This document shows, piece after piece, positions 15,020 through 62,149 of a DNA stretch of 64,000 bases. The notes beneath the pieces are model-generated. The model had not been told where the DNA came from, ran no database searches, and saw only the letters and a program-made list of their open reading frames with translations. The DNA is from Physcia stellaris (Eukaryota; Ascomycota; Lecanoromycetes; Caliciales; Physciaceae), in NCBI GenBank assembly GCA_018902385.1, contig JABSSW010000082.1, positions 44,401-108,400 on the forward strand. Direction: 5' to 3'. The translations under genes were made by a program, and so were the position numbers. Within the stretch, counting starts at the first letter, position 1. Each line of letters starts with the position of its first letter.

Positions 15020-15028
15020 GCTTTCTAA
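15020..15028. repeat. Target site duplication, left copy (GCTTTCTAA)
   Basis: The nine bases GCTTTCTAA directly precede the left inverted terminus and recur exactly, in the same orientation, directly after the right terminus at 26338-26346. A 9-bp duplication is what Mutator-like elements make on insertion. Confidence 0.85.
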
Positions 15029-15066
15029 CGGGATGTCTAGAGGGCGCGAGGTAGAACCGCAACGCG
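15029..15066 (+). repeat. Left terminal inverted repeat of the MULE (outer 38 bp)
   Basis: Begins cgggatgtctagagggcgcg and is the reverse complement of 26300-26337 with three differences, all transitions. The outermost 25 bases are identical. This outer part still contains GG, CT and AG steps, unlike the mutated interior that starts within tens of bases. Confidence 0.88.
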
Positions 15067-15459
15067 AGATTGATGATTAAGCATCATCTCATCTAATTTT
15101 GATGAACGACCTCATTTATTTGAACGAAGACATCGTTCGTCAACGATTTCGTCGTCGACGCATCTCGCTGTCGTCATATTTCTGTATAGAATTCATGATG
15201 TTGAGAGACAAGATTTCGCTTCGTTGATTTAATTTATGAATTTTAATTTATGATAAATGTCGAATCAACAATGCGTTTTTGTTGTGATTTTTTGTTTTTC
15301 ATTTTTTTCGTTTGCACGTCTCGTAAATTCGTTTTGTTTTTTTTTCGAATAAATTGTTTCGTCGTGATTTCAAAAGTAACATCTCGTTGACGTCGAATTT
15401 TCGATTGATGCGATTTCGATTTTCATTTTTTGAATTCAATCATTTTTTTTGTTTTGATC

Positions 15460-15626
15460 AACGTCTTGATCGATAAAATATAACATTTCGAAAATTTTCA
15501 TTTTTTTTCGTTTTCACGATTCAATTTTATCATTATTCACAATGTTATCACGATGATTCATTATCGTTTCGTAAACATTGCGTTTGTTTGTAATCATTTG
15601 ATCATTCAATCGTATATTTTTTTACA
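15460..15626 (+). repeat. 167-bp direct repeat, left copy (candidate 5' LTR)
   Basis: Starts aacgtcttgatcgataaaat and recurs in the same orientation at 23225-23391 with about six differences, all C/T or A/G. The Gypsy coding relic lies between the copies. This fits a short or partly preserved LTR; no matching 5-bp target duplication was found directly outside the copies, so the LTR limits are uncertain. Confidence 0.65.
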
Positions 15627-16028
15627 ATTTTGAATCGTTTAAATTTTCGTGAACGATTGTTCGATCAAATGATATCATTTAAAATTTCGAAAACATTTGT
15701 TGTCATTGCGTTCGTGATTCGAAACAATATCGTCATTTCGTTTCAACAATCATCATTCGACAACACGATCGTGAAATCGTTTTAATTTGAAATCGATCAA
15801 CGAAACGAATTGATTTCAATTCATGAAAATTCATCAAACGACGAACGCATTGTTGTTGTTTTTCGCGTGTCGTTTCGACGTATTATCGTCGTTTCAACGA
15901 ACGTCGACGATTTCGAATTCGATAATCAAATTAATTACGCAAACAATTGACGAACAATTCAAACGATAATTGAAAAAAAACGAAAAACAAACGTGAATAT
16001 AAATTGTTTTTGAAAAAAAACGTTTCGA

Positions 16029-16185
16029 TATTTTTTCTTAAAACGTAATATTTATTTCAAATTTGATCATTTTAAAAAAAAATCAAATCAAAAATTTTCA
16101 AATTCAAATTCAAATTCAATTCAAAGTTTGATTTGCAAAACAAATTTCAAATTCAAAATTTCAAATTTGATTCGATTTTCGAAAA
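16029..16185 (+). repeat. About 160-bp dispersed repeat, inverted relative to 24842-25010
   Basis: Begins tattttttcttaaaacgtaa and continues with runs of caaattcaaattt. The reverse complement is found at 24842-25010, inside the MULE transposase relic. It is probably a small non-autonomous element that inserted more than once, in opposite orientations. Confidence 0.6.
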
Positions 16186-19100
16186 AACGAAATTTCGAAA
16201 AAACGAAATTCAATTCGCGTTGTTGAAAAAAAACGAAAACGTTCACAAACGTTTTTCAATAACGAAAACGACGATGACAATAACGACAACGAAAAATTTC
16301 GTAATAAATTTATTTCGAAACGTTCGCGTTTTCGACGAATTATCGAATTCAAATTCAAAAATTTATTCATTTACAACGTCAAAAATATTAAAAAATTTCA
16401 ATCGTGAATTCGAAACGTCGTGTGAATTTTCGACGCAAATTTTAATTATTTTTTCAAACGTCGTATCAAAATCGTTTGAACGCAACAATTTTTTGATGCG
16501 ATTTCAATCGAATTATGAAAATCGCATCAGAAAATCAATCAATATCGAAAAAAATTGATGATGACGTGATCGTATTTTTCGAAATTTTTTCATAACGATG
16601 TCGAATTTTTGAAATTCGTCGTTTTGATGTGAATCAAAAATACAATAATGTTAAACAAAAAAAAAACGATAAATGAATTCGCGACGCATTTCGAATCGTT
16701 GAAAACAAAATTGAACGTCATCGAAAATATCAAACGAAACAAATTTTTTTATGATTTGAACGATATTTTACGAAAAATTATCATTTTCGACGCAATTTCG
16801 TCGACGATTCGTCAAAAAATTTTGATCAAAATCGTCAATGCGAAACGATCGTCATTTTATCAAAAATTTTCAAAACGTTTTCGATTTTCGCAAATTTTTC
16901 GTTCGAAAATCGTGAACGTCAAAAAAACAAAAATTTCGTCAAAAATGATTTTTTGCGCAATTTGATAAAACGAAAAATCAATTTGATAAAAACAAAAAAA
17001 ACGACGTCGATTCGTCGACGAAAAAAAATCGAAATTGTTACAATTGCGATGAATCGAAACATAAAAAAAAATTGTTTTTATTCAAAAAAAAAACAATCGT
17101 CGACGTTAATGCGATTCGCAAAAATAAAAACAAAACATTTTCAAAATTTATCGAAATCAAAAATGATTCGAAAAATTGAAAAAATTTGTTGCGATAATCG
17201 TCGTTGTCGTGACGAATTTACACAAAATTCAATCAAATGACATATTCATTCGCGTCAACGTCAATATTTTTGAAAAATAACAATCGCAAATGAATTTCAT
17301 GAATTCGATCGTTAACATAAATTGCATTTCGAAATCGTTGACGAAAAAATGAAATTTGCAAAATATCGACGAAACGTTCATAAAAATGAATAATTTCGAT
17401 GTTGAAAACAAATTTTTCATTAACACGTATCAAATGAAAATAAACGTACGTGATAACAAAAATAATTTTTTCATTTCAATACAAAAATTTTATTCATTTC
17501 AAAATTTGATGTATTTTTTGATAATGAATTTTTCATGAATAATGAAAAACAATTCACATGTACATTGATTCACGATGACGTGACGTTACACAATCAAAAA
17601 AAATCGATTGAAATTAAACATTTTCGAAAATTTCACGATAATGTTGAACGATAACATCATTTCAATATATGCGTTGATATATATCATACGAAAAAACGAC
17701 AAAACGTCGATCGAAATTTCGAACGAATTACAAACATTCGAAAATGTGTTTTTTTTTAAATCGACGATCACGTTTTTTTCGCACGACGAACACGATCATG
17801 TCATTGATTTAATGTCGAACAAATTTTCGTTTTTCGAATTTCTGTACAATATGTTTCAAAAAAAATTAAAAATTTTTCAAAAATATATTCGCGAAAATTT
17901 TGCGTTGAATCGTATCAAATATTCGATTGTCGATATTAATGCGTCGATATTATTCATTTTCAAAAAAAATGAAAATTTAAAATTTTGCGTAAATTACAAA
18001 AATTTGAATGCGATCACAATCAAAAACAAAATTTCATTATCGTTGATTGATGAAACATTGAATCGTTTAATAAACGTCGCGTATTTTATCAAATTAAATT
18101 TGAAAAACGCGTATTATCGTATAAAAATCAAAACGAATGACGAATGAAAAATCGCATTTCGAACACGATACGATTTTTTCGAATACGTCGTGATGTTTTT
18201 CGATTTTGTCAACGCGTCGACGATTTTTCAATCGTTCATAAACAAAATGTTTGCAAAATTGATAAACAAATTGTGTGTGTTGTTTTTAAACGACATTTTG
18301 ATTTATTTTCGAACGAAAAAAAAACATTGACGTCACGTAAAAACGATGTTTAAACGTTTTCGAAAATTCAATTTTTTCGTCAATTTGATCAAATGTCGAT
18401 TTATGCAAAAATTCATCGAATTTTTAAAATATATTATCAATAACAAAAAAATATTCATGAACATGAAAAAAGTAAATTCGATCAAATCATGATCGATTTT
18501 TGATAATTTCAAAAAATTGCAAATTTTTCTGAGATTCGCAAATTTTTATCGAAAATTCATCGTAAAATACGCGAAAATGTCGCGTTTACTGTTCGAATTA
18601 TTGAAAAATAACAAAAACGAAAAGCAAATCGACGAATTCATTTGAAACGACGAAACAATGAAAATTTTCAAAAAATTCATTCGCATGTTCATCGAAACGT
18701 TTATGTTAATGCATTTCGATTTCAATAATCGAACAATAATTGATATCGATGTTTCAAAATTCGTCATCGCAAAAATGATTTTGCAATTGATAAAAAATTT
18801 CGACATCGAAAATTAAACGCAATAACATTTCGTCGTTTTTTATTCAAAAAAAATGATATTTGTCGAAATTAAATATTCAACGCACGATCAAAAGTTGTTT
18901 GTCATCGTGAAAAATTTCAAACAATGACGTCATTATTTAAAAAATAATCAATTTACGATCATTGTAATATCGAATCATAACAATTTAAAATATTTCATGT
19001 TTATTACGTTTTTGAACAAACGACAAATCAAATGAATTTTATTGTTAAATGAATATGATTTCGAAATCAAATACAGAAATAAAAATTTGAATTCGACAAA

Positions 19101-20160
19101 CGAATCATTTCGACGTTCAAATTACGAAAACGAAAACGAAAACGAAAACGATAATATTTGTTTGTTCATATTGCAAAACAAATTTCGAAATATCGCAATT
19201 GCGAACATCGCGTTCTCAACGAAATCAAAACAATGCGAAAAAATTTTTGACGAAAAATTTTCAAAAAAAATTTTCAAAACGAAATTGTCGCGATATCGCA
19301 AACAATACGTCGAAAAAAAATTGTTGAAACGTGTGACAAAAAAAATTCGTACGAAAATTCATTTCAGAAATTTTTCAACAAAATTGAAAAATTGCAAATG
19401 TTCGACAATGAATGCGTAAAACGTCGCGCGTTCATACGAAACGACAGAAAATTTAAAAATTGAACATTAAATTCGAACAATATTTTACGATATTGATATG
19501 TTGTATATGTATCAAATGAAACAAATTTAAAAATCGAAATTTTGCGACGTTGTCACGACGATTTTTTTGCGAAACATTTCGAAATTGAAAAAATCGTTGA
19601 TTTCATTCAACGAAAATTTTATTGAATGTACATGCGAAAAAACATCGAAAAATACATCAAAAAATGCGCGATATGTCAAAAAACAAAAATTCATCATCAT
19701 CGTTTTTACGAAAAATTGTCGAAATTGTCGATGTCGACAAAATCATGAAAAAAAATTATCATTGATATGATCACAAAATTTTCATTCAATAAATGACACA
19801 AAAAAATTTACGATTCGATCATGATAATAATAAATCGATATATCAAAATAACGATTTACGTTTCGATCAAATTCATCATGAAAACAAACGAAATGTGTGA
19901 TTTGTTTTTCGACGACGTTTTTTTGAAATATAATTCGTCGAAAAACATAATTTCAAATCGTGAATTTTTGTTTACAAGTAATTTCTGATCAACATTGTGT
20001 TATCATGCGAAAATTAAACGCAAACTTAATATCGTTTTTCATTCACAAACAAATGATCAAACAAAAAAACAAAATCAATTTTTTGAATATTATTTGCAAT
20101 GTTTTTGCAATCACAAACAAAACAATTGAATTTCGTTGTTGTTAATGATCGTTTTCGTAT
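16133..20160 (+). pseudogene. Ty3/Gypsy gag-pol relic
   Basis: Pieces in order across all frames. A Gag-like capsid segment lies at about 16648-16965, followed by a CCHC-knuckle remnant near 17036 (CYNCDE then His, frame lost before the last Cys). Reverse transcriptase is at 17608-18330, with FCVNYKNLNAITIKNK for the usual VDYR-x-LN box, FIKLNLKNAYYRIKIK for the first catalytic block and FLNDILIYF for the YLDD box. The RNase H end is near 19042-19150 (LNEYDFEIKYRNKNLN), and the integrase HHCC finger is near 19600-19760, ending in IDMIT. The catalytic Asp residues of RT read Asn, explained by AG to AA changes. An expected Trp in integrase reads TGA. Confidence 0.85.
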
Positions 20161-23100
20161 ACAATTGCGCGAAACACGCGTTTATTGAATTAATTTCGTT
20201 TGAAATTTTGTTCGAATACATTTCAAATTTCAATTTCAAATTCGATTTTGTTTAACAAAACATTTCGACGACGAAACAAAAATTTCAAAATTTGTTCGAT
20301 AAACAAAAAAAATTACAAAAAAATTTGAAACACAATAATGAAACGCAAAAAAAATGAATCAACAAAAAAACATTCGCGAAAACATACAATGTAAAAAACA
20401 AAATCATATTGTCGATCAAAAATTTAAAACAAATGCGATCAAAAAAAAATTGTTCGACAAATACATCGAATTTTTTGAAATTGAAAACGTTGTCGACACG
20501 CAAATTTATCGTTTAAAATTGTCATTCAAATAACGCATTCATTCAATATTTCACGTGTTTTTATTCGAAAAATATCATATCAACGAATTCACAAAATCGT
20601 TTGCGAAAATAATTTTGATAAACGATCACGAAAAATGAAAAATAAAAAAAATTTTCGACGTGAAAAAAAAATGTTTCGATATTTGATTTGCTGAAAAAAA
20701 TATTCATCAATGATAATAAATGAATTAAAAAAAAAATTTGAATAACGTCGACGAAACGTTGACGACGTTCAAGCGAAAACGTGTCGAAATTCAATTGTCA
20801 TTTTTCGTCAAAAAAAAACGATCGTTCAAGCGAAATTTTGCAAAATCAAATTTGAAATTCAAAAAAAAAACGACGATTTGTAACAAAAAAAACGCAAAAT
20901 GCGAATTTTTTTACAATAAATTGTTTCATATGTAATAAAGTCAATAAAATTCATTTTTTTAATAATCGTGTCGTTGCATTGAATATGTACAAATGATTAA
21001 TAAACATGTTAAAATTATCAATTAATTTTTTCATGCGATGTTTTTTCAATTCGTCGTCGTTTTTATGTTAAAAAAATCACAAATCAAAATTTGTGAATTA
21101 CAATAAGCATCGTTTTGAATTTTATTTTCGTTTTTATCGTATCGATTTTTTCGATTGATTACGATTTGTTCGATTTTAATAAAAATAATGTTCAAAAACG
21201 ATTATCACGTTTATTCGACGTTGTTGTCGTCGAAATTCATGATTTCAACATCAATCGAAATTTGATTTTCATTTTTTTTTTCATTCGAAAAATTCGCGAA
21301 ACGCATAATTGAAAAATTTTCATTGACGCGAAACGAATCGATCATAAAACGTAAAATTTGATTGATGTTGACGAATCGAAATTTCAAACGCAACAACAAA
21401 TTTTCAATAAAACAATGTTGATTTGATTTTTTTGTTGTGTAAAATGTTGTTGAATTTTTACAATCGTATTTTTTAAACGCAATTGCAAATTGAACATTAA
21501 ATTGTCGCGTTTGTGTTTTATTGCAATTGTCAAAATCGTCAAATGTTGTTGAATTCGACGAACATATTTAAAAAAAATTAACGTGCAAAATTTGCGAATC
21601 GACACGCACGTAAAACATTTGTCGTCATAAAACGATCGAAAATATTGCGCAAATTAACGCGATTAATTGAAAACGCAAAATATATATTTCATGTTCAACA
21701 TCGTCAAGTTTGCATTTGACGCATTTCATACAACATTTTACACGAAACGTGTTCACAACACGTTTAAAAAATTACAAAAATTAATACACGAAATCACGAA
21801 ATCAAATCAAATTCACAGTTTTGATTTTGACGTTACGCGAAATCATTACGTGTTTCAATAACGACAATCAAAAAAAAAACAATAAATTTATTGTTGACAA
21901 TTTTGATATTGTACAAATTGTCAACGTCAACAAAACACAATTTAAACGCGAAAAACATTTTTATCAAATTGCTTCAAAATAATATTGAAAAAAAAAATGA
22001 AAAAATAATCGCAATGAATTTTTGTGTACGCGTCAAAACGTTAATCAAATATTTAACACATTCATCAAAACAAACGACGAACGCGATGAATCGCAAATGA
22101 AACGAAAAAAAATTATACAACGAACGCGACAAAACGTTTGTTTAACGACGACAAATTAATGTCGATTCGAACAATTGAAAATTAATTTTTTTCATTTCAT
22201 ATTGAAAACGTAACAATGAATAAAATCGTCGTCACGTTATCGATTCATGAATTACAATGAACATTTCATCATTTGAATTACAATAAACATTTGTCATTAA
22301 TAATGAAAATAAATCGTGTAAAAATAAAAATGAATAAAAATCAAAACAAGTTTATTTATATTCGAAATGACGCAAAAAAATCGTCATCAAAATGCAAATC
22401 GAAAAGCAAAAAAACAAAAAAACGATGTTCAAACGTCGATTCGAACGACAATTTCAAAAATAAAAATTTTTTCACTTTTGCGTTTTATTATTAAATTATT
22501 TGAACGATGACAAATAAAAATCAAATTGAAATTTTATTTTTTAATTTGACACGAGTAAATTATCACGCGTAAAATCAAATGACACGAATAAAACGTAAAA
22601 ACATCGTCATTAAAACAAAAAAGAAACGAAACAAAAAGCAAAAAAACATTGTTCAAAAATCGATTTGAACGATTATTTCTAAAATCAAGAAATTTTGATT
22701 TCAACGTTTTATCGTTAAATCATTTGAATCATACAAAAATTGATTTAAATTGTTTATTTTAATGTCAAAAAACAAAACGTGCTCGAAAATCAAAAATTAC
22801 ATTCAAAAAAATTTGAATTCGCAAAAAACAAACGTCGCAAAAACGTTTGTTTTCGTCTGTTCAACAAAAACAACAATGTATTGATGATTCGAGCAAATAT
22901 TGATTTGAACATATTCGTGTCGTGTATCATGAATGTCGTGATACATCGCAAATGACAATATCACGATTAACAAAAAAATTATCGCATGATCGCGAACATT
23001 AACATTAAAAATTACAAAAAAATTCTAATTGAAAATCGCGCAAGAATTGACGTCACACAAAAAATTATTTTCACGAAATCTTTTTAAACAAAAAAACTAA

Positions 23101-23224
23101 AAAATCGAATGAATTACACGCAAAAAAAATATCGACGATTTGATTCTGAAAATCAAAATTTAAAAAAAAAAAACAATTGTCATGTCATGTCAAAATCGTC
23201 AAACACGTTAATTTGATCGAATTT
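20161..23224. other. Hypermutated AT-rich sequence, nothing readable
   Basis: It lies between the integrase relic and the right direct repeat. It probably holds the remaining 3' part of the Gypsy element and perhaps further insertions, but no domain could be recognised on either strand. Confidence 0.4.
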
Positions 23225-23391
23225 AACGTCTTGATCGATAAAATATAACATTTCGAAAATTTTCATTTTTTTTCGTTTTCACGATTCAATTCTATCATTA
23301 TTCACAGTGTTATCACGATGATTTATCATCGTTTCGTAAACATTGCGTTTGTCTGTAATCATTTGATCATTCAATCGTATATCTTTTTACA
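23225..23391 (+). repeat. 167-bp direct repeat, right copy (candidate 3' LTR)
   Basis: Partner of 15460-15626, same length and orientation. The few differences are transitions, as expected from the hypermutation of the island. Confidence 0.65.
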
Positions 23392-23837
23392 TTAACGAAA
23401 GTTTCGTGAATAAAAATGACGTTTTTCGTGAAAATTTCGATTTGATTAATTAAAACGTCACGAACTTTTTTGAACAATCGTTCATAAAAAGTTTGTTGAT
23501 CGATCGTATTTCGAACGAATCGATTTTTGTTTTTGTTGTGATTGATGTTTTCGTCATCGAAATCGAAATTTATTGCATCATCGTAATAACGAGATTGTCA
23601 ATCATCAATATTTGTTTCGAAATCGTTTAATTTTCAGCGAAAATATAACAAAATTACAAATATTGAAAAAATTTTCAAAATCGTTCGAAAAAAATAATGA
23701 ACGTGTTTGCAAAATAAATCGTAACGAACAACAAAAATGCAATTACATGATTTTGAAACGATTTTTTTTTCATTTGAATTAATACGTTCGATCATTTCAA
23801 CGATCGTTATTCATTCGAAATTTATCGTTTTCATGAT

Positions 23838-25540
23838 TTATATAATAACGCGATCAAACAAAAGTTGAAAAGTCAAAAAATCGATTTCACGAAATCGTTT
23901 GATGCGTGATTTCTTTTTTTTTTCGCGAATAAAACGATGCATTTTTCGCAATTCAAATCGAATGTTTCGAAAAATCGTTTCGAATGACATTTGATCGTTG
24001 AATATGATTTTAACAACAAAATGCATGATTTCATTGCGTTGAATAATATGAATTTCGAAATTAAACAACAAAACGACGTAACAATTGACAATCATGTGCT
24101 TTTTGCGCATTCAATTGTTTTCGAAATAGTTTTTTTCGTCGAATTTCATGACGATCAATAACGTGATTCGATTGATAATTAATTCGAAAACAATAAAATT
24201 TTCAATTCAAATTCAAACGAAATCGTGCAACTCGTTTTGTGCGATTTTGATATATTTTTTCGCATTTGTCATTTTGTTGTCAGTTAATCAGATTAGAATT
24301 GCGTGAAATTTGAACACAACAGTGAAAAAAAATAAAAAGAAAACGAGAAAATTGAAAAAAAAAATGACGTATTTGATTTTGATATTTTCACATGCATGAA
24401 ATTGACAAAATTGACGATATATTGCAAACATGATCACGTTTAACGACGTCAACATGTTTTTGTTTTGATCGATAATAATCACACGAAAAAAATTGATGTT
24501 TTGAATTCACATTTCGTTTTTTAGAAAAATCAAAAAAATCGTCGTAGTCATTTCAAATTCGATCAAAACAAAAGAAAAAATCATCGAGAAATTCATATTG
24601 ATGTTTGTAACTTTTATGTTCACGAAAAATAACATTTTCAATTTATTGATATTGAAAATAACGTCGAATTCGATAAGAAAATTCGAACAAAAACGTTTGA
24701 TTCATTTCAATTGTTGATTATTCATTCAGTTGATTTGTTTCAAAATTCGCTTGATAAAAATATTATTGACGTTTCGTTCGTATTCGTATCGAGTGTAAAT
24801 TGATCGCGTCGAATCAAAAACTTGAATCGAATCAAATTTTTGATTCGAAAAAATCGAATTAAATTTGAAATTTTGAATTTGAAATTTGTTTTGATATCAA
24901 GTCAAACTTTGTAATTAAATTTGAAATTTGAACTTGAAAATTTGATTTGATTTGATTTTTTTTTAAAAATAATCAAATTTGAAATAAATATTACGTTTTA
25001 AGAAAAAATAATGCAAAAAGATAATGCATTTATTAATAACTTTTTATTATTAGAACTTTTTTTATTATAATTAGTATATGATGTCATTTTCAAATCAAAT
25101 TCAAATTTTAACATTGAGTTTGAAATTGATTCAAATCAAATTCAAACTTTAAATGAAAAGTTTGAATTTGAATCAAACTCAAGTCAAACTCGAACATGTC
25201 GATTTGAAACTTGATTCGACGATCAATTTAATCGAATGCGAATGATCATGTCATCGAATTTTTCAAAAACGACAAATAAATTCAATATGATTTCGCGTTG
25301 ATTGCGAATGACGAAAAAAATGAAATTGTAATATTTTTTTCGATCAATATGCAACATTTTATCGAAATTTCGTTCGATGTTGATCAACACGCGATCAAAT
25401 TGTTCGTAAATGAAAATTGATCGATAAGTTTTAGCGATATTTAAAATTTTGTTGTAATCAAATGATCGAAAACGATAAATTTCATAAAAAAATGAATTCG
25501 ATTGCAAAAAATGAAAATGTTTCAATTGATTTTTTTGCAC
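23838..25540 (-). pseudogene. MULE transposase relic
   Basis: Read on the minus strand. About 24690-24560 aligns by eye with the start of the MULE catalytic core: IFNINKLKMLFFVNIKVTN, in which the usual D-x-T-Y-K-T-N-x-x-x-MP-L and GVT features are recognisable, then NFSMIFSFV and a Glu. About 24482-24288 has DQNKNMLTSLN followed by CQFHACENIK, matching the C-x-x-H-x-x-x-N-I block of MULE transposases. N-terminal (25540-25223) and C-terminal (24110-23838) pieces flank it, and a dispersed repeat (24842-25010) interrupts it. No continuous frame survives. The assignment agrees with the inverted termini and the 9-bp duplication. Confidence 0.65.
24842..25010 (-). repeat. Dispersed repeat, inverted copy of 16029-16185
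   Basis: The reverse complement matches the left copy over about 160 bp, including the end tattttttcttaaaacgtaa. It lies between the N-terminal and core parts of the transposase relic, so it inserted into the MULE. Confidence 0.6.
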
Positions 25541-26008
25541 GCAAAATATTTAGATTTTCGACTTTTCAAATTTACGATCAATTCGTTTGTAATTGATGAA
25601 CAATCGTTATTTGCAATTCAAAGTTCGAATGTGAATCAATTCACGTTGACGATTGATAAGATTTTCGATCGTGTTTTTGTGTTCGTTCAATTTTTTGTAA
25701 TTTTTGATTTCGATTTGATGACATATGCAATGATAATATTTGCGAAAATTGTTTGCAAAATCGCAAAAATTAATGACAACAACGAAATCTTGATTGAACG
25801 CATAATTTTGAAATCGTTCAATAATTTTTTCAGAAATTTCAAATTGTTCATCGTCTCGAGAAAATTTCAAATAAACGAAAAATATGATATCGATGAATTT
25901 TTGTATCGCGAGAACAAAATTGCGATCGAAAACGAAATGAGAAATTCAGACGATCATGACGACGATAATATCGATTTGAAACGAAAACAACGAAATCAAC
26001 AATTGTAA
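25502..26008 (+). other. Unexpectedly long open frame in the mutated island
   Basis: 168 codons are open, ending in an acidic then basic tail (NSDDHDDDNIDLKRKQ). No family recognised. It overlaps the likely 5' part of the MULE gene on the other strand and may be a chance frame in TA-poor sequence, where stop codons are rare. Confidence 0.25.
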
Positions 26009-26299
26009 CAATAAATTCAAAAAACAAAAAGAAAAATGAAAATGATTTTGATCGTGTGAAATTCATTAACAAAAAAACGATGAGTTAATGAATCAATTCG
26101 AGTTTTTTCAATTTTTTCAGACATTTGATTAAGAGCATTTATTTTTCAACATCAAGAATTTGATATATTCAATTTTCGTGAAAACGACAACGAGATGATT
26201 TGCACGTTGCGCAGCATGTGTGTGGGGAAAAAAATAATTGAATTTTGAATAGATGAAAGTCTCATCAAAATCGATTGGCGAATGTTTATTAATGAATTT

Positions 26300-26337
26300 C
26301 GCGTTGCGATCTTACCTCGCGCCCTCTAGACATCCCG
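26300..26337 (-). repeat. Right terminal inverted repeat of the MULE (outer 38 bp)
   Basis: Ends ccctctagacatcccg and mirrors 15029-15066. The three differences from the left arm are transitions. Confidence 0.88.
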
Positions 26338-26346
26338 GCTTTCTAA
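26338..26346. repeat. Target site duplication, right copy (GCTTTCTAA)
   Basis: Exact copy of 15020-15028 placed directly outside the right terminus. Together the two mark the insertion as a clean transposition rather than a recombination product. Confidence 0.85.
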
Positions 26347-45582: not shown

Positions 45583-48514
45583 TCACATCCAGATGTGATG
45601 TTGGCCAGTCCCGATAATATCCCCCATGTCATCTGTATTACTCTGATCTGCGTTGGTTGAGACTCCTTTCGATAGAGGGGGAGTTGTGGATGCGCTTGCC
45701 GAGCTTGGCAGCGGTAGGAGGTCGGTATTGTCAGCATCTTCGCTTTGGCTGTCCTTGCAGCTTGCGTCCTCGGCGTTGACTTTCAGTAAATGACTAAAGT
45801 TCTTTTTCATATAATCTCTCTGGTGAAGTAGGAAATATTCAACCAAGTGCCCAACATAATCCGTCAAAACTTCTTCTCTTCTATAACCTGTGTAAACATA
45901 TCCTCCTTCCATTGGAGCCCAGTTCTCATAAAAATCCAACCAATTATGGAACCCAAGTTGCTCCACCTTGGGACTGTCAGCTTGACGACTCAAGCAGAAT
46001 GACATGCACTCAATGCATGATAACTCTCACCTTTTTTACGATCTGTTCCACCACCTCGTTCAACATCGCCTCCGTTAGCATGCCAGTCTCCTCCAGAGCG
46101 CAAAACCAGACATCCTCCCACATATTTTGTCTTGCCAGATCACCGGGTGTGTATCCGTGTACATCGACAGCATCCACCGAACAACCAGCACGAAGTAAGG
46201 AGAGAATCACTTGACGAGCACCGAGAATATCGAGATGAAAATACCCCGTCCTATCTCGTTCCATCGTAATATGAAGCGGCCCCCTTCCCTTGTGGTCCAC
46301 GGCTGTAACATCCGCTCCGTGCTCTAAAAGAATCTGTAGCCAATCGACTTTGAGTAACACATAGAAGGTACTCCCACCATACATCCTTGCTGTACTGAGA
46401 AATATAGTCTCTCCACTTTCAGGGTTTATGGACTCTGGATTCATCCCGAGACTTAGAAATGATTCGAATTTCCTACGAAGACTGCCAGCATTTTCCTTCC
46501 CGGGGGTCATTTTCACAAGCGGGGAACTATCGCAGAATAAATCATGAAAGAAGGCTTCACTGAGAGGTTGCCCTACTTTGCAGATATCCAGGGAGGCTTT
46601 AAGGCGAGCCTCTGAGAAGCCTTGATCTTTATCACAGACCTCTGTCCAGCACTTACTAGACTCACCACCCCAGAGGGTACTTTGAAGGTCGTTGGAATTC
46701 TCGATATCCCATGCTCCTTGTACCAAATATTGGAAGACTGCACCTGCCATTGGAACGCAGAAGAAGTAGAATGAAGCTGCTAACTGTCTCACGAATGCTT
46801 TAGCTTGGAAGAACTTCATAGGATTGGATGTAGTACCTCGATCAAATTAGGGTTATGGTCTCCAATCATATACTGATTGCACAGCGTATTGTCAGCATCG
46901 GGTGGTTCACCTGATTCTCTGTCGAGTTTACGCACCTTTTCGTATACAAATCGGTACCAAGGCTTGATTTGCCCAAGAGATAGCATTTGTTGCACAAGAG
47001 GTAAATCGTCCGACTCGAGTGCCTCCTCTAATTTGTCCCATATTTCGGCATTTGCCAATTGACCCACTCTTCGAATCTCTCGCAAGGTTCGACTAAAGCG
47101 CGGGTGACGTGCTAGTTGATAAGTCTTGCGAAAGGCGGCATACACACCAGCGCTGGATCCGGAACTTTGCGGGATGAAGTGGAAAGAAGCACGTTGAGAG
47201 GTTGTAGGCAGACCGTTGCAGTCACCAATGATTTTCTCCAGATGTACCTCGAGACGTCCCATATGACTGAATTGGGTTTTGCGGCAGCTATATACTCTTT
47301 TCATTGTCTCTGGCAAGGGTTCATTCCGGAGGCCCAGTGAATACCCACCAAAGGTTGCGCCCGGCCTGTTGCGATTCGGTCCCTGTTTGTCGATGAATTC
47401 GATTGTCTCAGGATTGTTAGAAGCGCCACTTTCGTGATAAAAAGCTATTAAACGCTTGTACTCATCCAGCAGAAAATCCACTTCGTCGCTCAAATTCTTG
47501 GGCGAAGGGGTTGCTCGTAGATCAGACATTAAATCATGAAGGCTTGCTCGCATTTGCAGAAGTACAAATGCCATGTTCTCTATTCCGGAGTGTTGGGCTG
47601 TACAGAAATTTGAGGTACCTTTCTGGGGATCCAACTGTAGAGACGAGAGCTGATCTAATGTCAAGGTTAATTGCTGCTTGCCCTGGCCTAGCTCACGAAG
47701 CTGCTTTTGGATTCGCTGCTGATTTCTGCGATTGAGAACATCAAGCCGTCTGAGATCCCCCCGCATAGCCCCCGTCATCTGGATCATGGTGTTTCCAGAG
47801 TCTAGGACTTGTCGACAAACATTATCACTAGCGACACGCAACTGTGTTTGAATGCTGTCCTGACCTCTGCAAACCTCATCAGAAATGTGGCCAAGGCTAG
47901 TCTGGATGTTTGCCGACTCAGTCGAGATCTTGAGCTCGGTTCCGGCTATGGAGGTATGGAGACCCACAAGCTGGGCACCCAGCTTCTTGTGGCTTTCACT
48001 GGTAGAGATGTCATGATCGCTGCTGATGATTAGTGATGATGGACTCAATCGAAAGCCGAGTTTCTAACCGTCCAGCTACCGAGAGCGCTGTGGTAATACG
48101 CCCGGCTAGATACTCGAGAGTGTTGCAGTGCTGTTCTAGCTTGCGCTCGTCCAGCACCCACTTGGCCCGTCTTTGAAGACTATCTAATTTTCCCTCTTTG
48201 ATGTTGAATTTCGCTACAAATGCCTCAATGTTGACTAGTTCCGAGTGGCATGCGTCTAAAGAAGTCCTGATGGCTTGAGTTGAGTAACCTTCTTCGAGTA
48301 CTAGTGCCGATGTTTGGTAGCGCTTGACTAGACGATCAACGTCTTGAAGCAGGGTATGAAGCTGACTGAGTCTTTCGGATAAATCCCGAATACTTCGAGA
48401 TGCATCTTTGATGACGCAAGTTGATCTGTAGAGTGAACCTGCAAGGCGACAACAAACGTCCGTAAGGCCAGCGATAGAAGCAAAGACAGTAATTCCGGTC
48501 AATATCTCTGCCAT
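45583..48514 (-). CDS. STAND-type N-terminal domain, coiled coil and ankyrin protein (NLR-like without NTPase)
   Basis: Four exons on the minus strand (48514-48069, 48022-46837, 46783-46031, 45966-45583) give 922 residues. Introns are 46, 53 and 64 bp; joins keep frame. Residues 1-145 match the fungal N-terminal domain of STAND/NLR proteins: MAEILTGITVFASIAGLTD, a hydrophobic first helix, then IRDLSERLSQLHTLLQDVD. A coiled-coil segment rich in Gln/Leu follows (about 150-290). There is no Walker A or B motif and no NACHT or NB-ARC domain. Residues 690-770 contain ankyrin-like repeats (LLEHGADVTAVDHKGRGPLH and RAGCSVDAVDVHGYTPGDLA). Fungal STAND proteins act in self/non-self recognition and cell death; a protein with only the ends could be a partner or regulator. 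The first intron is short with a weak donor (GTTAGA) and is the least certain. Confidence 0.78.
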
Positions 48515-48719
48515 AATACAATGAAGTTTCTGCTAAATCGTGATGATATGCTTTGTTACGAGCATGCCTGGCAGATAAATCTGACAGATAGATGATTTGA
48601 TAGATTGATTGATCTGACAAATATGTCGAGATAAGCGAATTATGTTTTTATTCTTATCAGTTTGTTGAAAAAAAGTTACACGAAAATAATAATTGATTCG
48701 CATGACATGATGCACGTGA

Positions 48720-50195
48720 TTAATTTTATATGTTTGACATTCGATTTTCTACATAATTATTTGTAACATTTTTTTAAATGATTATAATTTACGTATTTTA
48801 TCATCAAAAACATTTCATTCGATATTTGATTTTATTAATTTCGATTTTGATTTTTTGTTTATATATTAACTATTTTTTTTATTAATATTCATTTTCGAAA
48901 AACGATTAACAATAAAAATCGTCGTTAATCGTTTATTATTTATTTTTTAAAAACATCAAAATCGAATTTTTTTTATACGACAATTATTTTATCGATTGTT
49001 TATTTTTTCGAACAACAAAATTCTTTATATTATTATTATTGAATGTCAAAATTTCAAATTCATACGATTTATAATTGACGAATAATTTTAATCAACACGT
49101 TATATTTTTTGTTTTCGAATTCGAATATATTCGATTTATTAATTTCGCAATTATTTTCGTAACAACATTTTTGTTCGTTTACGAACAAAATTTCAAACAT
49201 ATTTTTGTGTCGATTGTTTAAATTTTCAATACGAATATTCAAAAAAACGATTACGAAAAATTATTGTTATTGAATTAATTAAATTTTTGAAAATGATTTA
49301 ATCAAAACGCATATTTACAAACGATTTCGTCGTTCAAACATTGTTGAAAAACTTAAATTTACGTTATTATTCGAAATTTATCGTGAATATTCTGTTCATG
49401 ATACAATATTAACGAACAAAACGTGTATTTTTGTCAAAAATTAATTATTTTATTTCAATCAACAATGATTTCGACATTTTATTTTAAATTTCGATTTCAA
49501 TTTTTGTTTCAAAATTCAATTTCGATAATTTATTTATTTTATTTAATTGATATCGTTTTTATATTAATTGTTTTTATATTGATCGATAATAATAACATGT
49601 TTTGTTTTTTCAATGAAATCGTTGAAAACGATCGTTAATTTCTCGTTATTTTGCATTTTAAAATACGTTCAAATTTATTTATTCAAAATGAAATCGAAAT
49701 TGTATAAATTTAATTTATTAATTAAATATTCGAATATGTTACGAATTGATTTCGAATGAATAAAAAATAAATTAATATTAAAAATATCAAACGAGAATAT
49801 TAATTATAAAAAGATAATTTAACAATACAAAATATTAAATATTTATACAAATTTCGTATAAAATTAAAATTTAAACAAAAGTTGACAAAAATTCAAATTT
49901 GTTATCAAGAAATTTACGTTGAAATCGTAACATTTTTTTTTTCAATTCGAATTTTTTGCGACGATTATTCTGAAAATTTTTGAAAAAATATGTTTTTTTT
50001 AATTAAAACGAATTGTCAACGACGTTTTTTTTTTTGATATTTTTTGATTTTATGTTTTGTAAAATTCATATTTAAAATTCATGTTTCAATATTTTTTTTA
50101 ACATTCATTTTAACGATAGTCGATATCGACTATCAATTGATTTTGATAAATGAAATTAGAATTAATTAGATTCATTATCAATCAAAAAAAGTTTT
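48720..50195. other. Hypermutated sequence, nothing readable
   Basis: No domain in any frame; the open frame 49423-49638 has no similarity that can be recognised. Confidence 0.4.
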
Positions 50196-50557
50196 GTTGA
50201 TAATGAATCGAATTTTCAATGAATAATGTTTGTATCAAAAATCTGAAATCAAATCTGAAATTTACGCAAAGTTTTCAACAAAATACGCATAGATTATGAC
50301 TCGATCGGATTAACGTCTGATTTTTAGAAATTTTCGAAACTTTTTTTGAAACGAATATTTCGAAATTTCGAACTTTCGTTGATAATGAATCGAGTTCTCA
50401 ATGAATATTGCTCGTATCAAAATTCTGAAATCAGTTTTGAAATTTACACAAAAATCGAGTTGAAAATTTGTGAGATTGAATTGAATCGAATTAACGTCTG
50501 ATTTTATAAAAAGTTTTGAAATTTTTCGTGTCGAAAATTTTTCGAAATTTCGAACTT
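50196..50557 (+). repeat. About 182-bp tandem repeat, two copies
   Basis: Copies start at 50196 and 50378, each with gttgataatgaatcga. Both contain gattaacgtctgatttt-like and cgaaatttcgaact-like segments near the end. The second copy abuts the left arm of the large inverted repeat at 50558. Confidence 0.7.
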
Positions 50558-50770
50558 GTGAAATGTCATGCATTGATTGAACTAATACATAACTACACGA
50601 AAATTTCTAAATGAAAAGCAAATACATGAAAATTTGTAAAAACATATGTAAAAAATTAAATCATTTGAATGCGTCAAGACGAATTTCGATTTTAACATTC
50701 GATGTGATAAAATAACGATATTAATTCGATGTTAATTTGTCAAATGTTGAATTCGATACACGTTCGTCAC
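50558..50770 (+). repeat. About 215-bp inverted repeat, left arm
   Basis: Begins gtgaaatgtcatgc and ends cgttcgtcac. Its reverse complement matches 54663-54878 nearly throughout (shared blocks such as cgaattcaacatttgaca and catcgaatgttaaaatcgaa). Confidence 0.8.
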
Positions 50771-53403
50771 ATTATTTTTCGTTTTTTTTTCAATTTCGTT
50801 TCGAAACGATTAATTGATTTTTTTTTTGAACGTTTTGCGCGATGTAAATATGTCGTTAAATGACGTTGAATTGATTAATCGTCGAAACAAAAAAACAAAC
50901 GCGAAACGTCGCGAAATGAATTTCGTCAACGAAATAAATTCGTCAAAATTTCGAAAACATTTATATGATTATTTTTTGAAATAAACAATTTGAACATGTT
51001 AATAAAATCGTCGTTACAATTTTTAATGCATTGATATTTTCGAATATGCGAAAATCGATATGTACATTGCATGCGTCAAAACGTGAATGCAATAAATATT
51101 TTGAAAAATGATCAATTTATACAATTTGTGAAAAATAATTTCGACGAACATTAATAATTGATAATTCGATTTCGCGTATCGACAAATTTGAAAATTTTTG
51201 CAACATCATGTTGATATTATGAAACGAACAATTTGATTACATTGACGAAATTTTTGTCATCACGATTAACGCGTTGATGTTATCGCATATACGACAATTG
51301 ATTCGTACATTGCATTCAACGAAATATGTAAATATTAAATTTTTTGAAAAGCAAATATTTTGCACGAATTTTACAAATAATTTCGCGTGTCATTAATAAA
51401 CAATTGAAAATTTTGTTGACGAATTTATAAATATTTGAATTTTTTGACATTTTGTTGTTTATTTATATTTATGCATGACACGTTTTTTACATTATTCATT
51501 GTTCAATAAAATTTGACGACAATTTTTGAAAATATTTTTGACACAATTCAATTTTTTATACGACGTAAATTCTGATTGTAAATAACGCGAAATGACAACG
51601 AAACGAACGATTATGAAAAAATTCATTTGAATCAATTTGAAAATAAATTGTAAAAAATTCGATAATAACGTTTTATGATCGATTACAAACAATAAAAAAC
51701 ACGATTTAATCATTTCGCAAAACAAATTTTGTTGTTTTTGAATTAATTTCGTGAAAAACATCGACGATATTTTGAACATTTTGAAATTCGTCGTTGTCGA
51801 CATAATATCACGTACGATTATAAAAATTTCAATTCGATTATTTACAACGATATTGAAAACGATAATAATAATATCGAAATTGCAATATATTGTCGAATTT
51901 TCATTCGAACGTTTTATTCGTTATAACGAATTTCGAAAAATCGTTGTATTGTTTTTTCAATGAATCGTTGAGATTTTTTCTTAACAATCAGAAATGAAAA
52001 ATTGAATGAATGTGCATGTTATCGAGCAATTCGAATTCGTAAACAATATTTTTTTTTTGACAACGAAATATGAATTTAATTTTTTGTCATTCAATTTGTC
52101 AAATGAACGAGTTGTTTTGATATAACAACGATTTAATTATACATAATTTTTTATTTCAAAATTGATCGAGAAACGAAATTTGTTGATTCGAACAATCATT
52201 TTTCGTTTAACATCAATAATATTGATTTTTATTGAACGAATGTGAATGATTGTCATTGCATTGCATGCAATATTATCGAAATTACGTACAGAAATAAATA
52301 CAATTTGATTGCGCAAATGTTTTTAATAATAATCGATTTTGACACGTTTTGTTTAATCGATCAATCAGAAATTTTGATTTTATTCGTGTTCATATTTCAG
52401 TTTTTTGTCATCGTATTTTTCAACATTTTCATTCGATGACAATCATGTTCATTGTATTCGTGAATGCGATTTTCATTGAATTTCAATTTTTGCATTAATT
52501 GTGATTTTCATTGAATGTTAATTCGTGCAACGATGTAATTTTTATTGAATTTCAATTTTTACGTTCATTGATGAAAAAAACACTGAATTTCTTTGATCAA
52601 AAAATTGATTTCGAGAAAAATCATTTTGAATTATTATACAATTCGAATTTGAACACGATCAACGAATTTCTGTTTTCAATTATAATTTGTCAAATTTGTA
52701 CAATCGAATCATCATCGTTTCAGAATGAAAAAAATGACGTAATTTTCATTGAGTTCGAATTTTCTTAATATTGACGAAAAAAACATTGATTTTCTTTGAT
52801 CAGAAAATTAAATTCGAACGATTTCAGAAAAATCATTTTGAATTATCATGCAATTCGAATTCGAACACGATCAACGAATTTTCGTTTTCGATCATGATTC
52901 GTCAAATGTGTACGATTGAATCATTAACACGTCAACATAAAAAAAACAATTTTAATTATTGAAAAAAATTTAATTGATTTTCGATTTTTTCAATTTCAAT
53001 TGTTTCACGAATTTCTTGAATTTATTTTTTGACAATGATTTAATCAAATCATCGATTATCATGTTTGCATTTGAAACGTAATTCAATTAAATCAAATTTT
53101 TCTGATGCAAATTTTTGATGTTGTGATAAATTACATCAATGTATTTTGATTGTTCATGAATATATGCGTCTTTGTCAACAAATTAACGATTTGATTATTT
53201 TTCAAAAATTGCATTAATAAGCAAATTTCATGTTTATCGTTTTGAATGATTGTTATTTGATTCAATTCAATTTCGAAATATTTGATAAAATTCAAATTTC
53301 GAAAAAATTGTGTTATTCATAATTTTTCTTTAGCGCATGTCGATAAAATTATATATTCGATTTCAATGATTGAAATAACGATCGATTTTTGTTTACGATT
53401 CAT
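50771..53403. other. Hypermutated sequence between the inverted arm and the Copia relic
   Basis: Apart from the 203-bp tandem duplication at 52532-52930 nothing is readable. Part of it may be the 3' end of the Copia element. Confidence 0.4.
52532..52930 (+). repeat. About 203-bp tandem duplication
   Basis: Copies at 52532-52734 and from 52735. Both contain gaaaaaaacactgaatttct or its near match, then tcattttgaattat and aacacgatcaacgaatttt-like segments. Read as protein, both copies give a similar peptide (TLNFFDQKIDFEKNHFEL and TLIFFDQKIKFERFQKNHFE), so the unit may once have been coding. Confidence 0.75.
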
Positions 53404-54439
53404 TTATGATATTGATTTTTCAACGAACATGTAAACGTATTCGAGAATCGATTTTTTGTTCAATTTATCGATTGCGTAATCAGAATTCGAATAAATTTTG
53501 ATTTTGAAATTTTTATTGTTGTTCAATTTCAAATCATATACAAGATTTAAATCGATGATCGATCGAATGTAACGAAACAGAATTTTCATTGTTTTATCGT
53601 GATGTTTCGCAAAATCATTGAAATATTGATTTAATCGTTTCAATGCGAAAACGATATTTGAACGAATGTGTATGACAACATACATGAATTTTTCAATTTT
53701 GTGTTGATAATTTTTTAAATCAATTCGTTCATCGTTCGATTCAATTGATTTGAATGAATCGTAATTGTTCATGAATAATTTCGTACGTTCGTGTTTATCG
53801 ATGTTCATATGCAATTCATTCAATATTTCATTCAAATAATGAGTTTGATTCAATCGAATAATTCGTTTTTTACGATCGCGAATCATTTTAATGTCAAAAA
53901 TTTTTTTCATTTTTTTTCAAATTTTTGACTTTGAATATTTTTTTGAATTCATTTTTGAATCAATTGATTTGTTCGTTGAATTTAACAACAACAAAAATGT
54001 CATTCACGTAAAAAAATAATATGATTTTTCGTTTTTTATGACGAAATATGCAAAAGTCAATCGAAATTTGTTCGAAATTTAATTTGTGCAATTTTTTCAC
54101 GCAACGTTCATGTCAATTTCTAGTTGTTTGTTTCAATTTATAAAAATTTCGACGAATCAGAAATGCTTGTTCGAAAAATAAATTCACGTCGAATGACGAT
54201 TTCATGTAAATTATTTTTTTTAAAAATGATTTCGTGAAAACATTATTGACGTTTATTTGATGACATTCGAGATTTTTCAACGCGACGATGACAAAAAACA
54301 AACGAAAAATATCGAATTTGACAATTGAAACAAAAATATTTGTATAATCGATTTCGTATACTTGCGAGAAATTTCTTGCAACAAGTTTGATTTTCAATTT
54401 GTTCAATATATCATTCACATGCATTTTGATTTTAAACAT
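53404..54439 (-). pseudogene. Ty1/Copia reverse transcriptase-RNase H relic
   Basis: On the minus strand, 54439-54113 gives the start of a Copia RT: KIKLVARNFSQVYEIDYTNIF for the usual ARLVA-x-G-F-x-Q-x-x-G-x-DY-x-x-TF, then LECHQINVNNVFTKSFL (usual D-VNNAFL) and NFYKLKQTTRN (usual LYGLKQ-x-R). 53910-53404 continues with IRLNQTHYLNEILNEL, KFMYVVIHIRSNIVFAL (usual G-x-LMY-x-x-x-x-TRPDI-x-F-A), RYIRSIIDLNLVYDL and SDYAIDKLNKKSILEYVYM. The parts upstream of RT (integrase, Gag) are missing because the large inverted repeat begins at 54663. Substitutions are mostly Gly/Asp/Ala to Asn/Lys/Ile, as expected from the island's hypermutation. Confidence 0.85.
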
Positions 54440-54662
54440 TCATTTATTGATAACGATATTGACGTTTTTCGATGAAATGACGACGTTTTAAATTTCATTG
54501 ACTATTAACGTCGTCAATTCGATTTGAATAATTTCGAGTCAAAATTTGTTTCAAATAAAATCATTGACGATTTTCTGATAATTTTCGAATACAAATATAA
54601 TTAGCTTTTCAACGAATTGTCGATTTGTTTTTTTTGTTGTTGCAAACAGAATTCATTTATTT

Positions 54663-54878
54663 GTGACGAACGTATATCGAATTCAACATTTGACAGAATT
54701 AACATCGAATTAACATCGTTATTTTATTACATCGAATGTTAAAATCGAAATTCGTTTTGACGCATTCAAGAAATCAAATTTTCTACATATGTTTTTGCAA
54801 ATTTCATGTATTTGCTTTTCATTTCGATATTTTCGTGTAATTATGTAATAATATCATATTTCTGCATAACATTTCACA
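54663..54878 (-). repeat. About 215-bp inverted repeat, right arm
   Basis: Reverse complement of 50558-50770. The Copia relic lies between the two arms and is read toward the left arm. Confidence 0.8.
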
Positions 54879-55081
54879 TTATATCGAAATCATTTTTTTC
54901 ATGTTCGTTTATGATACGCGAACATTCAAATAAACAAAACTTTTTGTTTCAAAACTCAAAGATTGATAAAGAAATATAATAGATTCGTATCGCTTGATCA
55001 TTCAAAGAAAACAACAAAACGTAACAAACTGATTGTGAATGCGAAAAAACGAAACATAATAAATTCTAACAATAGAACGAA

Positions 55082-60225: not shown

Positions 60226-61000
60226 AAACAAATTTGTATATTTTGTTTTTTTGTCAAAAAACGATTGATCGAAAAAATTCACGACGATTGTTTACAATTG
60301 ACACATAATCAAGTTTTGAAAACACATCGTCGCAATATAATTTTAAAAATTTTCATTGTTTGTTTCAATTGCGATCAAATGCAATCGATATGTAAAATGT
60401 AAAAAACAAAAAATCGCTGTATGCAAAATCAATTGATTTGACACGTCAATTGAATTGCATGTTATTTCGACAAAAAATTCGATCGAATCATGATTTCATT
60501 GTTAAAAAATTCAAATTTGATCACGAATGAAATCATTTCTCGATTGCAATGAAATTACGTTTAATAATTTGCGCAAGATTTCGAGTTGTTCAATCGTTTT
60601 GTTTTCAATTTGAGTCGATTTATTCATTATTAATTGAATCGTTTGAAAACTTTATGTATGTTCGATTATTGAAAAATCATTGTTCGTTGCATGCATTATA
60701 TCGCATGCAATAAATGTTTTCAATTCATAATTTGAATTTTGAATTTTCGAAATTTCACAAAATTGATTTTCGTCGATCGTTTGTGAAAATTTGATGATTC
60801 TTTTATTGAAAAAATGTTTATCGTGATTGCTTGCGATCATTATTAACAATTTTTTTGCAAATATTAAATTCGTTTTTTTTTGACAAATTTTTTCTCAAAT
60901 ACATTATTTTGTAACAATCATCAAGAAATCGATAACGCGAAATTTTTTCGCTTGAATCACGATAGTCAATAGTTTTCTTCTGTTCAAACGCAATGATTGT
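60226..61000. other. Hypermutated sequence, nothing readable
   Basis: Lies between the helicase relic and the repeat cluster. A segment near 60890-60945 (caaatacattattttgtaac) is a further copy of the hairpin arm at 61218. Confidence 0.4.
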
Positions 61001-61217
61001 GTAAAAAATTGAAAACGTTGAATCAATAAATAAACAACGACAAATGTCGAACAAATATTCGATAAAATGAATTTCACGTTAAAAAATTTGATCGTTTTGA
61101 CGACGATTTCGTTTGTGAAAACTTGACGATTTATTTATTGAACGAATTTTAATTGCGTGCAACGAATTCTAATTGCGTACAACATTGTTAACAATTTCTT
61201 TTTGCAAATTAATTTAA

Positions 61218-61343
61218 ATGAATCGTTTTTCAAATACATTATTTTGTAACAATCATCAAAAAATCGATAACGAGTGACAAAAATTTCACGTTATCGATTT
61301 CTTGATGATTGTTACAAAATAATATATTTGAAAAACGATTCAT
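61218..61343. repeat. Large hairpin, 55-nt arms
   Basis: Left arm 61218-61272 and right arm 61289-61343 are inverted copies with a 16-nt loop and few mismatches (aatcgtttttcaaataca ... tatttgaaaaacgatt). One arm is also found near 60890 without its partner. Confidence 0.8.
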
Positions 61344-61573
61344 CAAAAAAATGATTGATTAAATGATTTATTGAAAATATTGCGTCAATAAATATTCGAA
61401 ATCGATTGTCGAATAAACATTCGATGACATGAATTTCACGTTAAAAATTTGATCATTTTGATTTCGAAATCGTTTGCGAAAAAACGAAAATTCATTTATT
61501 GAACGAATGTTTGCAATAATTGTTTGCAATAATTGTTTGCAATAATTGTTTGCAATTTTCGCGCAAATGTACA

Positions 61574-61720
61574 AAATGAATTTCACGTGATTGAAATCGT
61601 TTTATTTTTCGATTTTTGTTTGTTTCTCGATTGTTTCGTATTCGAAATGTGAAAAAAACAATCGAAAAACAAACAAAAATCGAAAAATGAAACGATTTCA
61701 ATCACGTGTGAAATTCATTT
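61574..61720. repeat. Large hairpin, about 63-nt arms
   Basis: Left arm from 61574 (aaatgaatttcacgtgattg) and right arm ending at 61720 are inverted copies with only a few differences, with a short loop near 61637-61655. Because of the symmetry both strands read almost the same peptide. Confidence 0.8.
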
Positions 61721-62149
61721 CAATAATGATGTTGATTAAAAATTTTATTGAAAACGTTGCGTCAATAAATATTCGAAATCGATTGTCGAATAAACATTCG
61801 ATAACATGAATTTCACGTTAAAAAATTTGATCGTGTCGACGACGATTTCGTTTGTGCAATATTGACAATTTATTTGTCGAACGAATGTTTGCAATAATTG
61901 TTTGCGATCGTTGTTCGCAATTTTTTCTTGCAATCATTTTTGACTTTTTTAAATCGCGAATTTTTTGTTTATTTTTTTATCAATCATTACGTGCAAATTT
62001 TGTTTGCAAATTTTACGTGCAATTATTGTTTGCAATTGTTCGCAATTTTTTTTTGCAATCATTTTTGATTTTTCTAAATCGCGAATTTTTTGTTTATTTT
62101 TTTATCAATCATTACGTGCAAATTTTGTTTGCAAATTTTACAATCATAC

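Follow-up and report, generated by a model that had tools for sequence, protein, structure and literature searches.

Mutational defences of the repeat-induced point mutation (RIP) kind, like cytosine methyltransferases, pick their targets by the 3' neighbour of the cytosine. In canonical RIP, which is found in many Pezizomycotina, operates in Neurospora crassa through RID and DIM-2, and acts on repeated DNA after fertilisation and before meiosis, C is changed to T on both strands, CpA is the favoured target, TpA rises, and AT-rich islands of dead transposons are left amid the gene regions of a filamentous ascomycete. In the portions of the published reports available, the RIP and RIP-like signatures described fall on CpA, on CpA plus CpT, or on CpG (PMC4352252, PMC2621366, PMC5555474, PMC4014442, PMC6180176, PMC10998396, PMC4522978, PMC8016269), and a survey published in 2025, covering 1,239 genomes of fungi, presents CpA preference as common to RIP-like defences (PMC12543289). 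Here, we analyze a 64,000-nucleotide stretch of the Physcia stellaris genome (assembly GCA_018902385.1, contig JABSSW010000082.1, positions 44,401 to 108,400 of the forward strand; hereafter the window), in which two AT-rich islands, the first a Mutator-like transposon with a Ty3/gypsy insert, resemble canonical RIP in their both-strand change and their setting among gene regions, but keep CpA and leave TpA unchanged. What the islands have lost is C before a pyrimidine (CpY), the conversion of which is near saturation on both strands, with CpA and CpG spared.

CpT is a recognized target in several fungi, and alignments make it the leading target in places. For example, CpT is mutated along with CpA in four genomes of Botrytis, Sclerotinia and Magnaporthe, where its targeting was tied to a variant RID motif (PMC4352252), and CpT changes in Anisogramma are also accompanied by CpA (PMC10998396). 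Five CpT families of Colletotrichum truncatum have a TpA/ApT index of 1.61-1.67 and a (CpA+TpG)/(ApC+GpT) index (the CpA index) of 0.08-0.12, so CpA appears to be targeted there as well (PMC6180176). The rise in CpT exceeds that in CpA in Neurospora Tad1 (PMC2621366), CpT is described as dominant where RIP-capable fungi were compared by alignment (PMC7882544), and short ribosomal DNA (rDNA) repeats of Stagonospora nodorum show CpT changes without CpA changes, which the authors doubt to be RIP (PMC2621366). The islands differ from these systems in the near-complete loss of CpC alongside CpT, which is unreported in the available parts of those papers. The CpG-type RIP-like mutation of Microbotryum, Tuber and Rhizoctonia AG8 is, like that of the islands, a C-to-T change in a non-CpA context, affecting repeats or the genome, but CpG is a main target in the accessible accounts of it and is not depleted here. 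A loss of both CpC and CpT that spares CpA was not found in the open-access literature searched, coverage of which is incomplete and leaves priority unsettled. A prediction made earlier from the letters of this DNA (the original prediction) had stated that no RIP variant of this form was known; this stands for the literature searched, with the qualification that the S. nodorum rDNA repeats come close. Those repeats and the dominance of CpT in alignments are the nearest cases, and they count against full novelty.

The original prediction was built on hand counts over 17101-17220 and 58681-58800, which were reproduced exactly (CT/AG 0, CC/GG 0, CA/TG 30, CG 19, TA 9). When dinucleotides were counted over the bulk of each island, the second was found to carry the same signature as the first, as had been proposed (observed numbers, with those expected from base composition in brackets):

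15,500-26,100, island 1: CC/GG 0 (367), CT/AG 104 (1024), CA/TG 1289 (1031), CG 698 (183), TA 531 (1426)
48,900-64,000, island 2: CC/GG 6 (527), CT/AG 206 (1467), CA/TG 1976 (1468), CG 900 (263), TA 806 (2032)
15111-26223, hypermutated core of island 1: CC 0, GG 0, CT 47, AG 78 in 11,113 bp
48680-64000, no strand assigned, island 2 with the same signature, running past the end of the window; its left edge lies at about 48,580-48,680

Both strands are affected in island 1 (CT 39, AG 65, CC 0, GG 0) and in island 2 (CT 109, AG 97, CC 3, GG 3). The base 3' of C is C in 22.6%, T in 26.6%, A in 29.3% and G in 21.5% of cases in the gene regions, and the corresponding values are 0%, 3.7%, 46.2% and 50.1% in island 1 and 0.2%, 5.2%, 49.5% and 45.1% in island 2. 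Relative to the gene regions (with island 2 taken from 50.3 kb in this and the per-kb comparisons that follow), the loss of CpC is 100% in island 1 and 99.6% in island 2, and that of CpT is 92.4% and 89.2%. CG stands at 66.2 and 61.0 per kb in islands 1 and 2 vs 52.0 in gene regions, and at 3.4-3.8 times the number expected from island composition; CA/TG stands at 121.3 and 135.1 per kb vs 142.0 (-15% and -5%). The ratio of CpY to CpR (C before a purine) is 0.05-0.07 in the islands, the GC fraction of which is 0.26, and neither the kb-by-kb profile nor the dinucleotide counts revealed the signature in the contig's gene regions. The original prediction had also called TA scarce; set beside the gene regions, TA is better described as not raised (50.2 and 48.7 vs 48.2 per kb), except at 48,700-50,200, the sole island stretch with clearly doubled TA, where GC is 16-21%. 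The C-to-T direction of the change would follow from composition, reading frames and long terminal repeats (LTRs) rather than from an unmutated parent.

To compare possible targets, candidate rules were applied in silico to the gene regions, and the resulting trinucleotide tables were compared with those of the islands by Kullback-Leibler divergence (KL, in bits), using island 2 from 50,300 and hence without its TA-rich part. The rule put forward in the original prediction, conversion of C to T before a pyrimidine with CpA and CpG spared, was the best of those tested, with a KL of 0.020-0.021 vs 0.76-0.84 for the next-best rule and 0.76 to 1.78 for the eight other rules and no mutation; as yardsticks, one of the two gene regions differs from the other by 0.0037 and one island from the other by 0.014. 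Rules based on a 5' pyrimidine, TpC, the 3' C of CpC, ultraviolet (UV) dipyrimidines, non-CpG sites, a 5' purine, CpA, or CpA plus CpT were all rejected at a KL of at least 0.76, and the absence of mutation was rejected in this fit and in a separate test of 3' context. The latter used island 2 from 48,900 and covered nine other rules at two strengths plus no mutation, though not all combinations, and in it CpY gave a KL of 0.028-0.037 at strength 0.9 vs 0.33-0.36 for CpT, the next best. When conversion was fitted on a four-parameter grid by 3' base, the values for islands 1 and 2 were 0.05 and 0.01 before A, 1.0 and 0.99 before C, 0 and 0 before G, and 0.93 and 0.90 before T (KL 0.012-0.013 bits). 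The implied conversion of CpA to TpA is 1.4% in island 1 (95% interval -1.6 to 4.3%) and 0.4% at 50.3-64 kb (95% interval -3.5 to 4.5%). Whichever base stands 5', CC is absent from island 1 and present at no more than 0.2 per kb in island 2, and the survival of NCTN sites ranges from 0 to 0.27, with its minimum after C and G and its maximum at ACTT. Target choice is thus set mainly by the 3' base.

Standard RIP indices call DNA mutated when TpA/ApT is at least 0.89 and the CpA index is at most 1.03, as given in the available parts of the reports (PMC10998396, PMC6180176). The islands pass as unRIPped by these measures because their TpA/ApT is 0.39 and 0.39 and their CpA index 1.31 and 1.51, so the check proposed in the original prediction gave no canonical RIP signal.

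Mutator-like elements (MULEs) are defined by terminal inverted repeats (TIRs), a 9-bp target duplication and a MULE transposase. Island 1 has the anatomy of such an element, spanning 15,029-26,337 (11,309 bp), with the following parts:

15020-15028, no strand, left target-site duplication GCTTTCTAA, identical at 9 of 9 positions to 26338-26346
26338-26346, no strand, right target-site duplication GCTTTCTAA
15029-15105, forward strand, left TIR, 80.5% identity to the right one over 77 alignment columns
26262-26337, reverse strand, right TIR
15460-15626, forward strand, left LTR-like direct repeat, 96.4% identity to the right copy
23225-23391, forward strand, right LTR-like direct repeat
17281-18816, forward strand, Ty3/gypsy reverse transcriptase frame, open for 511 codons if its 8 TGA are taken as Trp
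19155-20255, forward strand, Ty3/gypsy integrase frame, open for 366 codons if its 8 TGA are taken as Trp
23838-24914, reverse strand, MULE transposase frame, open if its 8 TGA are taken as Trp, PF10551 at 4.1e-06

Judged from its TIRs, 9-bp duplication and transposase frame, island 1 is a MULE, although the PF10551 match is weak (27.6 bits, right at the curated cut-off). A Ty3/gypsy element is nested within it: reverse transcriptase (Pfam RVT_1, 1e-18; yeast Ty3 reverse transcriptase, 5e-35) precedes integrase (Pfam Integrase_H2C2, 9.5e-18; yeast Ty3, 1.8e-20) and LTR-like repeats lie on both sides; the flanks of these two repeats differ, without a matching target duplication, and the true LTR ends are uncertain. 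An inverted repeat of about 160 bp (16029-16179 and 24850-25010, 91%) has one arm in the gypsy part and the other beside the MULE frame.

The mutation of island 1 is confined inside this one transposon insertion. Over the 500 bp outside the element, CC/GG and CT/AG stand at 90 and 130 per kb on the left and 96 and 122 on the right, which is the gene level; mutation thus ended within the element. The outer 25 bp of the TIRs, identical at both ends, retain CC/GG and CT/AG. At the island edges CC/GG disappear ahead of CT/AG, which indicates that CpC was converted before CpT. Residual CT/AG amounts to 24.5 per kb in the MULE parts vs 5.9 in the gypsy part (Fisher p 3.6e-15). Targeting by element identity, under which CT/AG should drop at both LTR borders, was considered, and the argument that efficiency follows the element was dropped because the kb on either side of the right LTR are alike (CT/AG 20 in the last gypsy kb vs 17 in the adjoining first MULE kb, p 0.74).

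The specificity for CpY has consequences for coding. By the codon table, C-to-T change at CpY on either strand does not turn CAA, CAG or CGA into stops, and the sole new stop arises from TGG, which becomes TGA. The reverse transcriptase and integrase frames contain 16 TGA in 877 codons, and the two regions that align with Ty3 cover five of its tryptophans, four of which, by eye, stand opposite TGA (query residue 350 of the first frame and residues 157, 198 and 325 of the second), the fifth sitting at an alignment edge; the remaining four TGA in these regions stand opposite R, F, Y and a gap. Gly and Pro are absent from the two gypsy frames, in keeping with the loss of GG and CC, and TGG codons also number zero. 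If TGA is taken as Trp, the longest frames in islands 1 and 2 have 511 and 663 codons, whereas first-order Markov simulations, 200 per island, reached at most 361 and 408; under the standard code the longest frames have 187 and 291 codons vs maxima of 184 and 213, and the 291-codon frame spans a tandem array.

Comparison of repeat copies within the window bears on the history of the islands. The LTRs of a retroelement are identical at insertion, and the LTR-like pair of island 1 differs at 6 of 167 sites, all six being C/T or G/A; CpT accounts for four of them and CpA for two. Because this pair, a single short one, shows transitions and no transversion, hypermutation appears to have been fast relative to ordinary mutation. 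The window yielded 21 repeat rows, from which 12 regions were compared (one with revised limits, two palindromes cut to a single arm), leaving aside five rows belonging to the array at 61.9-62.5 kb, those at 60777 and 50965, and the gene-region rows at 1643 and 42433. The main total excludes the four least similar regions (the outer TIR, tand22.4, tand50.2 and rep61.0/61.7), and the eight closest pairs, some of which overlap, have 112 differences, 72 of them transitions and 40 transversions. Among these pairs CpT sites differ at a rate of 0.727 (16/22), the site rates omitting 18 C/T differences with unlike neighbours.

We consider it likely that the islands record a RIP-type defence directed at repeats, in which a RID/DIM-2-type pathway has its target shifted from CpA to CpY. 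In such a process C before a pyrimidine would be converted to T on both strands (CpC to about 99-100%, CpT to about 89-93%) and CpA and CpG would be spared; the trigger may be the repetition of the DNA, the enzyme a RID- or DIM-2-type cytosine methyltransferase, and the time of action before meiosis. A RIP-like process is favoured because the targets follow a 3'-neighbour rule, and the rules for deaminases and UV fit poorly. Among the 38 gene-region frames scanned, from 101 frames of at least 90 codons in 1-48,600, none had a methyltransferase match in Pfam.

A pathway led by DIM-2 is the main rival because a preference for CpT is stated for the Neurospora enzyme in the available part of a 2026 review (PMC13297926). 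DIM-2-like methylation of CpY in heterochromatin over mitotic generations would then be followed by deamination of 5-methylcytosine, and premeiotic sensing of repeats would be unneeded. The finding that Zymoseptoria tritici Dim2 increases mitotic C-to-T mutation is in keeping with such a slow, chromatin-directed route, but its mutation signature is CpA, and DIM-2 methylation, which occurs in all CpN contexts, is described in the accessible text as preferring CG and CA in that species, with CT methylation hardly detectable (PMC8016269). The LTR-like pair, with its six transitions and zero transversions although island 1 has lost every CpC and about 92% of its CpT, suggests fast saturation, and the flanking DNA is at gene level right from the element ends outward, so we regard this route as unlikely. 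A cytidine deaminase of the APOBEC/AID kind, acting on transposon DNA with a requirement for a 3' pyrimidine, would also give C-to-T changes only and on both strands. However, known APOBEC/AID-like deaminases select by the 5' base, and 5'-context rules fail in the islands (KL in islands 1 and 2 of 0.93 and 0.87 for TpC, 1.28 and 1.24 for YpC, 1.23 and 1.21 for RpC); in addition, TCA and TCG, contexts favoured by APOBEC3A/B, are up 1.6-2.1-fold there, and we find such an enzyme quite improbable.

The AT-richness and sharp borders of the islands might instead be those of unmutated DNA with an unusual composition, either foreign or AT-rich by nature, a reading to which we give very little weight. 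TA and CG at or above the gene-region levels of the host, with CA/TG within 15% of them, match the prediction of CpY conversion in place, and TGA at the Trp positions of Ty3 points to former TGG. When two degenerate patterns of the mutated motif were sought in viral contigs, one gave 0 loci and the other 17, of which 0/17 carried the signature; their lowest CpY/CpR in 1-kb windows taken every 250 bases was 0.77 vs 0.05-0.07 in the islands, although at a locus GC of 0.34-0.50 that is unmatched to 0.26. The 19-base MULE end had 0 matches in viral contigs, and relatives of the gypsy reverse transcriptase and of an FAD oxidase sought there were none of them confirmed. An artefact of library chemistry or assembly, such as bisulfite-like conversion, UV or storage damage, or a chimeric contig, is the least credible of all. 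UV damage hits dipyrimidines, and neither dipyrimidine damage (KL 0.90 and 0.89) nor non-CpG conversion (0.98 and 1.11) fits well; such damage should also affect gene regions elsewhere on this contig, and the 9-bp duplication links island 1 to its flanks.

Several observations weigh against the favoured reading. CA/TG in island 1 lies 15% under the gene level, two of the six differences in the LTR-like pair are at CpA, and CpA sites differ at a rate of 0.165 (22/133) and CpG sites at 0.154 (16/104) across the eight most similar repeat pairs. CpR sites therefore do change as well, more slowly than CpT, and the hand-added counts for all 12 regions give the same picture (CpA 32/181, CpG 29/167, CpT 35/48, CpC 2/7). 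At 48,700-50,200, where CC/GG is 0, TA is doubled to 104 per kb and CA/TG is 90 per kb; either this stretch was AT-rich beforehand or CpA was targeted there as well. Over 50-110 bp at its ends (15029-15110 and 26224-26337) the transposon is little mutated, and residual CT/AG climbs from about 22.4 kb (22400-26220) without a step at the right LTR. As for the reading frames, they were selected as open with TGA as Trp, a choice that by itself accounts for the absence of TAA and TAG from them and makes it no evidence; only those of 511 and 663 codons clearly exceed the simulations (one of 366 compares with a maximum of 361, and one of 358 falls below the maximum), and the 663-codon frame has no match in Pfam or NCBIfam.

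If the shifted-target pathway is real, the shared CpA preference would have an exception in a genome that converts nearly all CpY but no CpA to a measurable extent, indicating that target choice can flip. Such a genome would offer a naturally altered specificity from which to learn what determines the target of RID or DIM-2. In vitro catalysis by RID has so far gone undetected, according to the available part of the 2026 review (PMC13297926). Screens based on TpA/ApT and the CpA index can yield false negatives. A bolder proposal, which we advance tentatively and hold to be doubtful, is a fungal defence with a strict 3'-pyrimidine rule, the near-complement of RIP, in which transposons are destroyed by mass missense, perhaps by an enzyme outside the RID/DIM-2 pair; such a defence would have stayed unseen because the usual RIP indices test for loss of CpA and gain of TpA.

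Island 2 is probably transposon DNA as well. It contains inverted repeats (50547-50771 and 54662-54890) and the 663-codon frame (56259-58250, 20 TGA read as Trp). Pfam searches with 10 island frames gave three transposon domains, one weak unrelated match and six without a match, none of the five island 2 frames among them having a transposon domain, and NCBIfam gave 0 matches for the five frames tried. A frame at 53404-53916 looks copia-like by its motifs, but it had the weak unrelated match in Pfam and none in the PDB. A tandem array with a 13-bp step (62226-62576) has long open frames across it on both strands.

Outside the islands, one gene-region frame encodes a fungal rhodopsin domain (3.2e-22), and a region on the reverse strand (46010-48532) has a borderline match to the HeLo domain (6.3e-05, 23.3 bits vs a cut-off of 23.2) with weakly ankyrin-like sequence next to it. 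HeLo is a domain of the cell-death or incompatibility type, and fungal rhodopsin and HeLo domains are typical of filamentous ascomycetes, so the domains by themselves would place the host in the ascomycetes. Relatives of the protein at 46819-48063 were sought in genome contigs, and none was confirmed. The HeLo/ankyrin-like region lies close to island 2, its first frame starting some 50-150 bp from the island edge.

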